This document shows, piece after piece, positions 1 through 49,011 of a DNA stretch of 64,000 nt. The notes beneath the pieces were generated by a model that did not search any database, was not told where the DNA came from, and saw nothing but the letters and a program-made list of their open reading frames with translations. The stretch spans positions 1 through 64,000 of the forward strand of contig NZ_CAMZFB010000003.1 of assembly GCF_947305955.1 (NCBI RefSeq), read 5' to 3'. Numbering within the stretch: position 1 is the stretch's first letter; every line of letters starts with the position of its first letter. Source of the stretch: an uncultured Brevundimonas sp. Lineage in GTDB: Bacteria > Pseudomonadota > Alphaproteobacteria > Caulobacterales > Caulobacteraceae. The position numbers and the translations under genes were made by a program.

Positions 1-1
1 G

Positions 2-718
2 CGCGGTAAGATGCAGTTGCCCGACGATGCTGGCGACTCGTGGTTCAGCAACTGGGTCGATCAGACGGTGAGCCGCCTGTCGAGCAACACTTGGGCCATC
101 ATTGCCATCGTCACTTTCCTGCTGTTCCTGGCAGGACTGGCAGCCTACTTGTTCATGGATAACGTGCTGATGCGCAAAATCGGCTTCTTTGGCGGCGCAT
201 TGATGATTGTGGCCACTATCCTGGCCAATCTAGCGGCATTTCACGTCTATCACAAGGCGACAAGTGGCAATGGTGCCATCATCATGCCCGAAACGGTCAC
301 GCTGAGCACTGCGCCTCGCGAGCCGCGTGACAAGGACGAAGAAGCCTTCCAGCAGTTCGAGCGTCCGCAGTCCCTGTCGGTCTGGGCCCTGCCCGCCCAA
401 ACCAGCCGGATCGAGAATGCGGGCTTTGCTTCGACCGCCTATCGCCTGCGCTTCCAACAGCTGTTGGCGACGCCGCTGATGTTTGCCGCCATGTCCATTC
501 TGGCCGCCGCCTTCTCGCTGCGACTCATGCGACTAGGCGATATGGCGCGTATGGCCGTGTCGGCTGTGGTGCTGGGCTTTGCCTTCTTCTTTGTGAACCA
601 GTTTTCCGCAGCGATGGGATCGGCAGAGGTCATTCCGCCGTTTATCGCCGCATGGTTGCCAGCGATTTTAACCGCACTCGCCGCACTTACCTTGCTGTTC
701 TATACCGAAGACGGCTAA
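2..718 (+). CDS. Chimeric ORF: BatE-like segment joined to C-terminal half of LptG (partial at left edge)
   Basis: The frame is open to the window edge; the first ATG is at 11. Residues about 1-100 hold two membrane segments and the motifs MRKIGFFGG and AIIM followed by an ETVTL stretch, which I recognise from Bacteroidetes BatE/TPR aerotolerance proteins. From about residue 112 (FERPQSLSVWALP) to the end (LLFYTEDG) the protein matches the C-terminal permease part of alphaproteobacterial LptG, the inner-membrane LPS export permease that pairs with LptF and LptB. The normal LptG N-terminus is absent. Lines counted at 61-300 are about 54% GC, and the line at 421-480 is 63%. The following lptD fits the usual lptF-lptG-lptD order. 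I infer that the last ~370 bases are true lptG and that the upstream part comes from elsewhere, by misassembly or recombination. Confidence 0.6.
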   Translation, partial: RGKMQLPDDAGDSWFSNWVDQTVSRLSSNTWAIIAIVTFLLFLAGLAAYLFMDNVLMRKIGFFGGALMIVATILANLAAFHVYHKATSGNGAIIMPETVTLSTAPREPRDKDEEAFQQFERPQSLSVWALPAQTSRIENAGFASTAYRLRFQQLLATPLMFAAMSILAAAFSLRLMRLGDMARMAVSAVVLGFAFFFVNQFSAAMGSAEVIPPFIAAWLPAILTALAALTLLFYTEDG

Positions 719-772
719 TCCTCGGACACAGGTTCACCGCCCTGACGTCGCTACCCCGTATTGGAAAACCGT

Positions 773-3235
773 ATGCGTGATCGCCATCAAGCCCCGACAG
801 GAGCCTCGCGCCTGAAGTTGATGGCCGGTGTGGCACTGTGTGCTCTGCCTGTCATGGCGATGGCCCCTGCTGCCGAGGCCCAATCCCAAGCCAGCGCCCA
901 ACCGGCTGCACCTGCCGTCGTCGTGCGCGGTGAGGATGGCCTGACGCCTGACGCCCTCTATGTCGAGGCCGATGCCGCCGAACGTCAGGGCGACGTCGTC
1001 AGCGCCCAGTCACAGCCCAATGGCGAGCGCGTCTTTGCCCGTTTCCGCGACCACAGCCTGCGCGCCGAAGACATCCGCTATGATCTGAAAACCGGCATCG
1101 CCGCGGCCAATGGCCGTGTCGAGCTGATTTCGCCGGATGGTACGGTTCTGCATGCCTCGCAGCTGGAACTGGACGAGGACCTGAAGACCGGTATCGCGGT
1201 CAATCTGGCCACCCGCACGCCGGAGGGCGCGACCCTGATGGCGGCGACCGCCGTGCGTCGTTCCGAGAACGTTTCGGAACTGAACCGCGTCCTGTTCCTG
1301 CCGTGCCCTGTCTGCGAGAACGATCCGAACTATTCGCCGTCCCTCACCTTCCAAGCAGAAAAGGCCGTTCAGGACGAGAAACTGAACGCCATCCTGTACA
1401 AGAATGTGGTGGTGCGTCTGGCGGGCGTTCCGATCTTCTACAGCCCCTATTTCGCCCACCCGGACCCGACGGTCGAACGGGCATCGGGCTTCCTGATCCC
1501 GCGCATCGACTATGCCGAGGATCGCGGCCTGTCCGCCGAAATCCCCTATCTGCACGTCGTCTCGCCATCCGAAGACTGGCTGTTCAGCCCGCGTGTGGCG
1601 ACCAATGTCGCCCCGCTGATGAATGTTCAGTGGCGCCGCCGCTTCCAGTCCGGGACGATTGTCGCGCGCGGTGGCTATACCTATGCCCGCAACTTCGGCG
1701 ACTTCGATCTGGACGGCGATGGTCGCGCCGAATCGAACGTCCACTTCGGCGACCATGATCACCGCTCCTATATTCTGGCGCATGGCGAGTTTGACCTTCA
1801 GGGCCCGTGGCGCTGGGGATTCACCGCCGAGCGCGTCTCTGACAAGACCCTGTTCGACCGCTATGAGGTCCGCGATCCCTATCAGGACAACGGCCTTTAC
1901 TACGGTGACCGTCGCCGCCTGATCTCGCAGATCTATGCCGAACGTCAGACCGAGCGGTCCTATCTGTCGGTCGCGGCCTTCAGCATGCAGAGTTTGCGCG
2001 TGTCGCGCTTCGACCCCGTCACGCCCGCGCTGAACGATTTCGAGGCTGACAACTCCCTGCCCATCGTCGGCCCCATCGTCGAGGCCCGCTGGGAACCGGA
2101 AAGCCCCGTTTTGGGCGGTCGCCTGCGTCTGCGCGGGACGGCTGTGGCCCTGACGCGTGATGCCTATGTCGGCTATCCGACGCTGCGTCCTGAAATCCTG
2201 CCGACGGGTTCGACTATTGGCCTGCCGGGTGTGGACAGCCGCCGTATCAGCGGCCACGTCGATTGGCGACGCGTCTTTATCACCACCAACGGCCTGCGCT
2301 GGGAGCCGTTCGTGGATGTCCGCGCCGACGTCTATTCGGTGGATGACCTGCCGCCCTTCCTCGGCGTCGATAACGAGATCATCACCCGCGCCCGTACCAG
2401 CGCCGGTGTGGATGTGTCCTATCCGCTGTACCGCCCGATGGGGAATGGGGGCAGCATCGTGCTGGAGCCGATGGCCCAGCTGTCGGTCTCCAACAATGTC
2501 GATCAGAATGTCCTGATCCCCATCGAGGACACCCAGACCGTCGAGCTGGACCACATCTCGCTGTTCCGTATGGACCGCTTCCCCGGTTACGACCTGTTGG
2601 AAGGCGGCGTGCGCTTCACCGCCGGTGGCCGCGCCACCTTCAACTGGGACGGCGTGCGCTCGGCCAGCGTGTTTGTGGGCCGCTCAATCCGTGCCGACCA
2701 CGAAAACGCCTTCCTGACCCCGATTCCGGACGACAACTCGCGCCTGTACGACCCGTCGGGTCTGGCCCGCCGCACGTCGGACTGGGTGGTTCAAGGCACT
2801 TTTGATCCGTCGGACCGTATCCGTGGCTGGTTCCACGCCGTGCTGGACGACAGCGGGGCCATGCGCCGCGCCGAAGCCACCATCAGCGGTGACTGGGGCC
2901 GTCGCAACTCTGCGGCGCTCAGCTATATCGTTGACCGCTCCAACCCGCTGGCCGGCCCGAACAACCGTAACTACGAGTTCGTCCAGCTGGCCGCGCAGCA
3001 GTTCGTCTATCGCAACTGGGGCGTTGCCGCCCGCGGCATCGGCGACATGGAACGCGACGTCATCACCCGCTCGGAAGTGGGTATCCTTTATGACGACGAC
3101 TGCTTCCGTCTCGAAGTCGGCTGGCGCCGGGATAACACCCGCGTTCGCCCGACCGGCCCCTCCGAAGGCATTTATATCCGCCTCAACCTCGCCACCTTTG
3201 GCGGTAACGGATATGATGACACTGAATTACGGTAA
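773..3235 (+). CDS. lptD: LPS-assembly protein LptD
   Basis: LptD is the outer-membrane beta-barrel that inserts lipopolysaccharide into the outer leaflet with LptE. The protein (~820 aa) has a signal peptide ending near residue 37 (AEA-Q), an OstA-type periplasmic domain (about 60-200) and a long barrel of alternating aromatic strands to the C-terminus. Cysteines at about 178 and 181 (CPVC) and near 777 could form the inter-domain disulfide; this is fewer than the four in E. coli. I chose ATG 773 rather than TTG 761 because GGAAAA lies six bases upstream. It follows lptG sequence and precedes surA, the chaperone that delivers LptD, so the run is functionally coherent. Confidence 0.95.
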   Translation: MRDRHQAPTGASRLKLMAGVALCALPVMAMAPAAEAQSQASAQPAAPAVVVRGEDGLTPDALYVEADAAERQGDVVSAQSQPNGERVFARFRDHSLRAEDIRYDLKTGIAAANGRVELISPDGTVLHASQLELDEDLKTGIAVNLATRTPEGATLMAATAVRRSENVSELNRVLFLPCPVCENDPNYSPSLTFQAEKAVQDEKLNAILYKNVVVRLAGVPIFYSPYFAHPDPTVERASGFLIPRIDYAEDRGLSAEIPYLHVVSPSEDWLFSPRVATNVAPLMNVQWRRRFQSGTIVARGGYTYARNFGDFDLDGDGRAESNVHFGDHDHRSYILAHGEFDLQGPWRWGFTAERVSDKTLFDRYEVRDPYQDNGLYYGDRRRLISQIYAERQTERSYLSVAAFSMQSLRVSRFDPVTPALNDFEADNSLPIVGPIVEARWEPESPVLGGRLRLRGTAVALTRDAYVGYPTLRPEILPTGSTIGLPGVDSRRISGHVDWRRVFITTNGLRWEPFVDVRADVYSVDDLPPFLGVDNEIITRARTSAGVDVSYPLYRPMGNGGSIVLEPMAQLSVSNNVDQNVLIPIEDTQTVELDHISLFRMDRFPGYDLLEGGVRFTAGGRATFNWDGVRSASVFVGRSIRADHENAFLTPIPDDNSRLYDPSGLARRTSDWVVQGTFDPSDRIRGWFHAVLDDSGAMRRAEATISGDWGRRNSAALSYIVDRSNPLAGPNNRNYEFVQLAAQQFVYRNWGVAARGIGDMERDVITRSEVGILYDDDCFRLEVGWRRDNTRVRPTGPSEGIYIRLNLATFGGNGYDDTELR

Positions 3236-3330: not shown

Positions 3331-4683
3331 ATGGGTTTCAAGCGTTTCACCACGGGAACGGCAATTGCCGCCCTTCTGACGTCCGCCACCTTGGCACCGG
3401 CTGTCGCGCAAACCGCACCGGCCCAAACGCCACAGGCAGCAGGCACGCTTAATCCCGCCGCCGAGGACGCGCCGGTACGCGCGGCCCCTCAGACGCGTTT
3501 CCAGATGACCGAAGGCGTTGTCGCCACGGTGAACGACCGCATCATCACGGGCTGGGACCTGCGTCAGCGCATGCTGACCACCATCCTGATGTCGCAGGTT
3601 CAGCCGACGCCGGAAACCCTTCCGGCCCTGCAGCAGCAGGCTCTGAACGATCTGATCGACGAGCGTCTGCAAGCGCAGGAACTGGCCAAGTTCGAACAGC
3701 TCAAGATTTCCGATGAAGAAGTCGACCGCGAAATGGCCCAGCTGGCCCGCGAAATCGGCGTCTCCACCGAAGACTATCTGCGCATCCTGCAGGAAGCCGG
3801 CATCCAACTGGCCCCTTATCGTGAGAGCATCCGGACCCGTCTGGGCTGGAGCGATCTGACGGTGGGCCGCTTCCGCGATCGCGCCAAGGTCAGCCGCTCG
3901 CAAGTCGATCAGGCCATGCGCCAGATCACCGAATCGGCCACCAAGCCCCAGTATCTGATCGGCGAAATCTACCTCGACGCTACCCGCGTCGGCGGCATGC
4001 AGGAAGCCGTCAACGGTGCCCGCCAGCTGATCTCCCAGATGGTTCAGGGCGCGCCGTTCCAAGCCGTTGCCCGCCAGTTCTCCTCGGCCCCGACCGCTGC
4101 CCGTAACGGCGATGCCGGTTGGGTGGTCCAAGGCACCGTCCACCCTGCCCTGCAATCGGCGATGGATGTGCTGGAAGTCGGCCAGCTGTCGAACCCGATC
4201 GTCGTCGAGAACGGCGTCTACATCATCTACATGCGTGACAAGCGCGCCGGTGCCGCCACCAGCCACGTCTCGATGAAGCAGGTGATGATCGAACTGCCGG
4301 AAACCGCAACCGAGGCTCAGGTGACCGCGGCTGCGGCCCGTCTGAACGCCCTGCGTTCCGGCCTGACCTGCGACAACATTCTGGAACGTGCCCGCGCTGA
4401 ACAAGGCGTGCTGGGCTCGGATCTGGGTGAAGCCGAGATCTCGAACCTGCTGCCGCAGTTCCAGCAAGTGGCCCGTTCGGCCACCGTCGGTTCGGTCAGC
4501 GATCCGGTGCGCTCGCCGCTGGGTCTGCACCTGCTCGCCGTCTGCGACCGCCGCGTCGGCGGTCCGGAAGTGCCGTCGCGCCAACAGATCGAAAACCGCA
4601 TGCAGGGTCAGAACTTCGCCATGCTGGGCCGCCGCTATCTGCACGACCTGCGTGAAGACGCTCTGATCGAAATCAAACAATGA
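3331..4683 (+). CDS. surA: Periplasmic chaperone / peptidyl-prolyl isomerase SurA
   Basis: This is a 450-residue protein with an N-terminal signal peptide (cleavage near AVA-Q, residue ~26). A SurA N-terminal helical domain spans about residues 60-190, and two parvulin-like segments follow (about 205-310 and 312-415, the latter ending in LGLHLLAVCDRR). SurA escorts unfolded beta-barrel proteins such as LptD across the periplasm to the BAM complex. It lies 95 bases after lptD. Its stop overlaps the pdxA start (ATGA at 4680), so the two are translationally coupled. Confidence 0.95.
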   Translation: MGFKRFTTGTAIAALLTSATLAPAVAQTAPAQTPQAAGTLNPAAEDAPVRAAPQTRFQMTEGVVATVNDRIITGWDLRQRMLTTILMSQVQPTPETLPALQQQALNDLIDERLQAQELAKFEQLKISDEEVDREMAQLAREIGVSTEDYLRILQEAGIQLAPYRESIRTRLGWSDLTVGRFRDRAKVSRSQVDQAMRQITESATKPQYLIGEIYLDATRVGGMQEAVNGARQLISQMVQGAPFQAVARQFSSAPTAARNGDAGWVVQGTVHPALQSAMDVLEVGQLSNPIVVENGVYIIYMRDKRAGAATSHVSMKQVMIELPETATEAQVTAAAARLNALRSGLTCDNILERARAEQGVLGSDLGEAEISNLLPQFQQVARSATVGSVSDPVRSPLGLHLLAVCDRRVGGPEVPSRQQIENRMQGQNFAMLGRRYLHDLREDALIEIKQ

Positions 4684-5717
4684 TCGAGGGGCCGACCGGA
4701 CCGCGCCCATTGGTCGTGACCATGGGCGACCCCGCTGGCGTCGGCCCTGAAATCATCGCCAAAGGCTGGGAAGCGCTGAAAACACAGCGCCAATCCGTCC
4801 TTGCGCCCGCCCCCCTGCCGTTCGCGGTTCTGGGGGATGCGGCCACCTTGGCCAAGCAAGGCATGCCAGTCGAGGCCGTCTATTCGGCCTCCGAGGCCTT
4901 TCAGGTTTTCAACCGGGCCATTCCGGTCATCGACCAGCCCGTGCCCCGCCCCGTCACGGCGGGCCAGCCCGATCCGGCCAATGCGCCGATGGTCGCCGAC
5001 TGGATCGAGCGCGCCGTCGATATGATCCTGTCGGGCGAAGCTGCGGGCATGGTCACAGCCCCTATCGCCAAGGCCCCCATGTATGCCGCGGGCTTCCGCT
5101 TTCCCGGCCACACCGAATTTATTGCCGAACTGACCTCCGACATGCCCTTCATCGGCACGCGCGGTCCGGTGATGATGCTGACAGCGCAGGACCTGCGGGC
5201 CTGTCTGGTCACCATCCATGTGCCCATCGACCAACTGCCCGAACTGATCACCGCCGAGCGTGTGACCCGCATCGCCCGCGTAGTGCATGAGTCGATGAAG
5301 CGCGATTTCGGCATCGCCAAGCCGCGTCTGGCCATGGCGGGCCTGAACCCCCATGCGGGCGAAGGTGGCTCGATCGGCCTTCAGGAAACCACCATCCTGC
5401 GTCCCGCCGCCGAACAGCTGCGCGGGGAAGGCATCGACATCACCGATCCCCTGCCCGCCGATACCCTGTTCCACGAAGAGGCCCGCAAGCGTTACGACGC
5501 CCACATCTGCCTCTATCACGATCAAGCGCTTATCCCAGTGAAAACGCTGGACTTCTGGGGCGGCGTCAATGCCACGCTGGGCCTGCCTATCGTGCGGACC
5601 TCGCCCGATCACGGCACGGGGTTCGATATCGCAGGCAAGGGCGTCGCCCGCGCCGACAGCTTTATTGCGGCGGTAAAACTGGCTTCAGACATGGCGGCCA
5701 AGCGCGCAACGCGCTAA
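4680..5717 (+). CDS. pdxA: 4-hydroxythreonine-4-phosphate dehydrogenase PdxA
   Basis: PdxA performs the NAD-dependent oxidation of 4-phosphohydroxy-L-threonine in the DXP-dependent pathway to pyridoxal phosphate. The 345-aa length is normal. The start motif TMGDPAGVGPEI and the three metal-binding histidine contexts (PGHTEF, NPHAGEGG, YHDQALIP) are all present. It overlaps surA by four bases and is 10 bases before rsmA. The surA-pdxA-rsmA order is a widely conserved proteobacterial cluster. Confidence 0.96.
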   Translation: MIEGPTGPRPLVVTMGDPAGVGPEIIAKGWEALKTQRQSVLAPAPLPFAVLGDAATLAKQGMPVEAVYSASEAFQVFNRAIPVIDQPVPRPVTAGQPDPANAPMVADWIERAVDMILSGEAAGMVTAPIAKAPMYAAGFRFPGHTEFIAELTSDMPFIGTRGPVMMLTAQDLRACLVTIHVPIDQLPELITAERVTRIARVVHESMKRDFGIAKPRLAMAGLNPHAGEGGSIGLQETTILRPAAEQLRGEGIDITDPLPADTLFHEEARKRYDAHICLYHDQALIPVKTLDFWGGVNATLGLPIVRTSPDHGTGFDIAGKGVARADSFIAAVKLASDMAAKRATR

Positions 5718-47812: not shown

Positions 47813-49011
47813 TGCTGGATCGCCTCCAACGGATCGACCTTGGCGGCATTACGCGCCGGAATGATGGACGCCACCACCGCGCCCAGCGTCGTCAGCACCA
47901 GAGCGGCGACATAGCCCCCCTGCTCCGGCGCGATGGGCAGGGCCGAGGTGCCGTCGGCCTTGGTGATCCCTTCCAGAAACACGCACAGACCATAGCCCAG
48001 ACCGCACCCCACCAAGGCCCCGACCAGTCCGATCAACAGCCCCTGCAGCAGGAAGACCCAGATGATGAAGCTGCCCGAAATGCCAAAGGCCCGCATGATC
48101 CCGACCTCGCTGCGACGGCGATAGGCCGACAGCACCAGCGCACTGGCGATACCGATGATGATGGAGATCAGGGAGAAGGCCTGAATCATGGTGCCCGTCT
48201 GGCCTTGGGCGTTCAGCGCGTCCTCAAGGCTTTCGTTCTTTTCTTGCCACGGGGTCACGCGCTGACCCGTCGCGCCCTTGAGGAACTCGGCCACGTCGCG
48301 GGCCTGCTGTGGGTCGGACAGCTTGACCTCGATATTGGTCACCCCTTCCGGCAGGGCGAACAGCGGGCGCGCCGTCTGGATCGACATGAAGGCCACCCGC
48401 TCATCAAGGCTTTGCAGGCCGGTGCGGAAGATCCCGCTGATGGTCAGTTGCCGCTCCACCCCGCGCTCGGTCCGCAGCAGGACGGCCTGCCCCGCCTCCA
48501 GTCCGAACTCCTCAGCCATCTTGCCCCCGATCAACAGGCCATCGGCCCGCAGCTGGCCAGAACCATCGACGATCTTGGGGGTGATCTGGCTGATGGCGTC
48601 CACGCCTTCCGGCTCGACGCCCAGCACCGAAAGCGGCGACACCGCCTCACCCTTCACCAGAAAGGCACTGCCTGAAATCTGCGGGCTGATGGCCGATACG
48701 CCCTCGGTCGAGCGCAACAGATCGACAATCATCGGCCAGTCGCGGATCTGCTTGCGTTGCAGGGTAGAGACCAGCGCAACACCTTCCACCGGCACATCGC
48801 CTTCGATCACGCGGGCCACCCGCGTCGGGGCCTCGATGCTGACGTGGGCGCTGTCGCCCGTGACCTGCTCGGTCAGGCGAACCTCCAGCCCCGCGATCAG
48901 GGCCGTGATGAAGACAAACACCGTCACCCCCAGCGCCACCCCTGCAATCAACAGCAGGGTCTGGCTGGGGTTGGACAACAGATAGCGGCGGGCGACCTTG
49001 AGAGCGAACAC
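47809..49011 (-). CDS. ABC transporter permease (MacB/FtsX-type)
   Basis: This is a 400-aa permease with a cytoplasm-proximal N-terminal membrane helix, a large periplasmic MacB-like domain (about 45-265), and three C-terminal membrane helices (FtsX domain). It is the partner of the ATPase downstream and the HlyD-type adaptor upstream. Confidence 0.93.
   Translation of the reverse strand: MFALKVARRYLLSNPSQTLLLIAGVALGVTVFVFITALIAGLEVRLTEQVTGDSAHVSIEAPTRVARVIEGDVPVEGVALVSTLQRKQIRDWPMIVDLLRSTEGVSAISPQISGSAFLVKGEAVSPLSVLGVEPEGVDAISQITPKIVDGSGQLRADGLLIGGKMAEEFGLEAGQAVLLRTERGVERQLTISGIFRTGLQSLDERVAFMSIQTARPLFALPEGVTNIEVKLSDPQQARDVAEFLKGATGQRVTPWQEKNESLEDALNAQGQTGTMIQAFSLISIIIGIASALVLSAYRRRSEVGIMRAFGISGSFIIWVFLLQGLLIGLVGALVGCGLGYGLCVFLEGITKADGTSALPIAPEQGGYVAALVLTTLGAVVASIIPARNAAKVDPLEAIQQ

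Follow-up and report, generated by a model that had tools for sequence, protein, structure and literature searches.

A BatE-LptG reading frame at the tip of a Brevundimonas contig, almost certainly an artefact of assembly

When a reading frame at the edge of a contig joins parts of two proteins from different phyla, does it encode a real fusion or was it made by the assembly? The question is raised by the first 718 bases of the window, the stretch of 64,000 nucleotides analysed here (G000:C3:1-64000). A preliminary description of this DNA had pointed to BatE-like and LptG sequences joined in one frame at the left edge and had left two explanations standing, an assembly chimera and a cross-phylum fusion in which the N-terminal half of LptG had been replaced. 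Base 1 of the window is base 1 of contig C3 (109,704 bases), and the join lies ~340 bases from the physical end of that contig. Genome G000, which appears to be a metagenome assembly, consists of 90 contigs totaling 2.83 Mb, with an estimated completeness of 99.99% and an estimated contamination of 0.02%.

Two proteins in one reading frame

Bases 2 to 718 form a single open frame of 238 amino acids that is open at the left edge. Its residues 112 to 238 correspond to the C-terminal third of LptG, the permease of the lipopolysaccharide (LPS) export ABC transporter. Residues 113 to 232 matched positions 233 to 351 of the 353 positions of PF03739 (LptF_LptG) in a Pfam search (5e-22) and positions 234 to 349 of TIGR04408 (LptG) in an NCBIfam search (4.6e-28), and the LptG part of the frame showed 94.5% amino acid identity to residues 256 to 382 of LptG from a congener, G024. 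As those positions are all of the permease profile that it covers, the frame does not hold an intact LptG. The genuine 3' third of lptG (bases 335 to 718, plus strand; LptG residues ~240 to 366 plus the stop codon) is followed on the same strand by its normal downstream neighbours, lptD (761 to 3235; PF04453, 1.9e-46) and a surA-like peptidyl-prolyl isomerase gene (3331 to 4683; Rotamase and SurA_N domains), both of which are syntenic in G024.

The first 112 residues yielded no significant family in Pfam or NCBIfam; what identifies them as BatE is their near-identity to a gene located in a bat operon. When 84,980 species genomes were scanned, 50 relatives of this part were found, all of them Bacteroidales by record title; the best was L007, from a rumen Bacteroidales (MAG RUG373), with 99% protein identity. 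Because a BatD gene (PF13584) immediately precedes the L007 gene, along with a TPR gene and VWA/BatA-type genes, the piece can be assigned to BatE from the bat (aerotolerance) operon of Bacteroidales. Residues 1 to 111 correspond to codons 99 to 209 of the L007 gene, which has 257 codons and encodes TPR and SH3-like domains. The piece is thus an internal one, and it is not an intact BatE: it comes without the start, the TPR part, the C-terminal SH3-like part and the BatA, BatB and BatD neighbours. Thus, the preliminary reading of a BatE-like and an LptG part in one frame was confirmed by the family matches and by the Bacteroidales relatives.

At the DNA level, window bases 1 to 352 aligned in blastn with L007 bases 5000 to 5351 without a gap and with 95.7% identity overall, and we regard bases 1 to 334 (plus strand) as foreign Bacteroidales DNA. 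The identity was unevenly distributed, being 98.3% over bases 1 to 291, 79.6% over 292 to 340 and 100% over 341 to 352, with 5 differences in the 291 bases before base 292 and 10 in the 49 after it (Fisher p = 3e-6). The differences in 292 to 340 were nearly all synonymous. Other Bacteroidales were also more divergent over this segment, but less steeply than L007, and none of the loci fetched exceeded 82% identity to it. The exact donor strain was not found among the relatives compared. Judging by the pattern of identity, the batE tip may be mosaic, with sequence from two Bacteroidales strains; a consensus drawn from a mixed sample would fit this.

With L007 BatE as the query, the only significant match in G000 was C3:2-355 itself, the remaining match having an E value of 0.3. 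L007 BatD gave no matches in G000 or in seven congeners, whereas the same query recovered its own gene in the genome of L007. Neither a second BatE relative nor a BatD was detected in G000.

The remainder of lptG and the congeners

The preliminary description had proposed looking for an intact lptG and lptF elsewhere in the genome; lptF and the first part of lptG were found at the end of another contig, C77. A search of G000 with PF03739 returned a full LptF at C77:5438-6472, an LptG without its C-terminal part at C77:6571-7200, the C-terminal part at C3:338-697 and two further matches, both of which were under the cut-off. Within the window, a sub-threshold PF03739 match of 13.7 bits at 48013 to 48162 on the minus strand lies inside a 421-amino-acid frame and is probably due to chance.

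The LptG on C77 breaks off after profile position 205, and its frame runs off the 3' end of the contig (7261 bases, terminal sequence CTGGACCTGCCGTCCCACC) after codon 237. When the last 19 bases of C77 were aligned to the lptG genes of relatives, ~5 bases separated the end of C77 from window base 335, so that together the two pieces restore LptG to within a few bases. The resulting protein (237 + 2 + 127 = 366 residues) compares with 365 residues for G024 LptG when counting starts at the matching methionine. Unlike the frame at the edge of C3, then, the genome as a whole does contain the N-terminal two thirds of LptG.

G024 carries a pepA-like gene, lptF, lptG, lptD and surA in a row on one contig, with a normal LptG. 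This gene order joins C77 (pepA-like gene, lptF and the front of lptG) to the window (the back of lptG, lptD and surA). Once the tip of C3 is disregarded, the contig that truly belongs to the left of C3 is C77 (L072, 6550 to 7261), and the ~5-base gap between them falls inside lptG.

All 40 congeners matched the frame at 2 to 718 through its LptG part only, and a match to the whole frame, that is, a BatE-LptG fusion, was found in none of the 40. The congener alignments began at query residue 85 or later, with one exception at residue 60, and in the relatives inspected the stretch before residue 112 was near chance at the DNA level.

These results bear directly on the idea of a real fusion, in which batE DNA would have been transferred across phyla and would have taken the place of the N-terminal part of LptG. 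The uninterrupted frame of 238 amino acids is what such an event would give, and the batE part reads as natural coding sequence, since its differences from L007 are nearly all synonymous in effect (99% identity in protein, 95.7% in DNA). However, the N-terminal part that should have been replaced is present beside lptF right up to the join, the arrangement is absent from all 40 congeners, and the piece lacks the batE start in a genome in which the other bat genes were not found. Moreover, the close match to a Bacteroidales species from the rumen (98.3% identity over 291 bases), together with the position at a contig end, favours foreign reads, and an LptG deprived of its N-terminal part loses most of the permease. 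We therefore consider a cross-phylum replacement extremely improbable, and this part of the preliminary description did not survive. We give equally little credence to a genuine in-frame BatE-LptG fusion carried by a subpopulation alongside the normal lptG.

The join and the origin of the tip

The lptG homology of the congeners begins at window base 334/335; upstream of it, bases 311 to 334 matched congener lptG at chance level (3 to 7 of 24 bases). The join zone (335 to 352, plus strand) consists of an 18-base word, GACGAAGAAGCCTTCCAG, that lptG of congeners and batE of Bacteroidales have in common, exactly or nearly so. In L061 and L065, both congeners, lptG carries all 18 bases unchanged. 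On the batE side, bases 341 to 352 are identical in L007, L018 and L024, and 17 of the 18 bases are shared with L026; beyond the word, identity to L007 batE falls from 100% to 32% (353 to 420). The word encodes DEEAFQ in lptG and (D/Q/E)EEAFQ in batE, and because both proteins encode (D)EEAFQ there in the same phase, the frame stays open across the join. From these base comparisons, the join lies within this word, which the two genes share by chance (12 bases exact, 18 or more likely). It had been placed near 310 to 345, and the position found here coincides with that range or falls a little to its right. The shift in GC content that had been described (from about 54% to 63%) is real but weaker, from 57.1% for bases 2 to 334 to 60.6% for bases 335 to 715. 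Elsewhere in the window, 6% of segments of 333 bases have a GC content as low as that of 2 to 334, so GC alone does not suffice to reveal the join.

If Bacteroidales DNA had recently and genuinely inserted into lptG in some members of the population, splitting the gene over two contigs, lptG would likewise be interrupted, with bat DNA where it breaks off. Yet there is no bat sequence on the C77 side, no further part of a transferred segment turned up in G000, the junction falls inside a word common to both genes, and lptG is normally essential in LPS-making bacteria. Such an insertion is, in our judgment, very improbable indeed. We rejected both a real fusion and a real insertion, given that C77 carries lptF and the front portion of lptG as far as the join and that none of the 40 congeners shares the join.

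The frame at 2 to 718 is not a gene. On sequence comparison, it is almost certainly an artefact, the chimeric tip of a contig produced in metagenome assembly, with ~334 to 352 foreign bases joined to lptG. The join is close to a contig end, the true continuation of the gene sits on the end of another contig, and a word of 12 to 18 bases is shared at the join; of the two explanations first offered, the chimera is the one that held. A contig end that bears a little foreign sequence, attached through a short shared word, is also what interspecies misjoined metagenome contigs show, and we found no difference from them. A point on the other side is that batE and LptG share one frame here, which has a 1 in 3 probability by chance.

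We propose that the assembly broke inside lptG, such that C77 carries lptF and lptG codons 1 to 237 and C3 the remainder. The assembler would then have extended the broken left end of C3 leftwards via the short lptG/batE word, adding ~334 bases of batE. This would imply that Bacteroidales DNA was present in the sample, and the step responsible could have been a short k-mer, local assembly or tip extension.

The frame has no biological significance in itself, but it illustrates on a small scale how a false gene fusion between phyla can sit at the end of a contig even when estimated completeness is high and estimated contamination low. Tips of this kind could pass into protein databases, where they would appear as fusions and as false cases of horizontal transfer.
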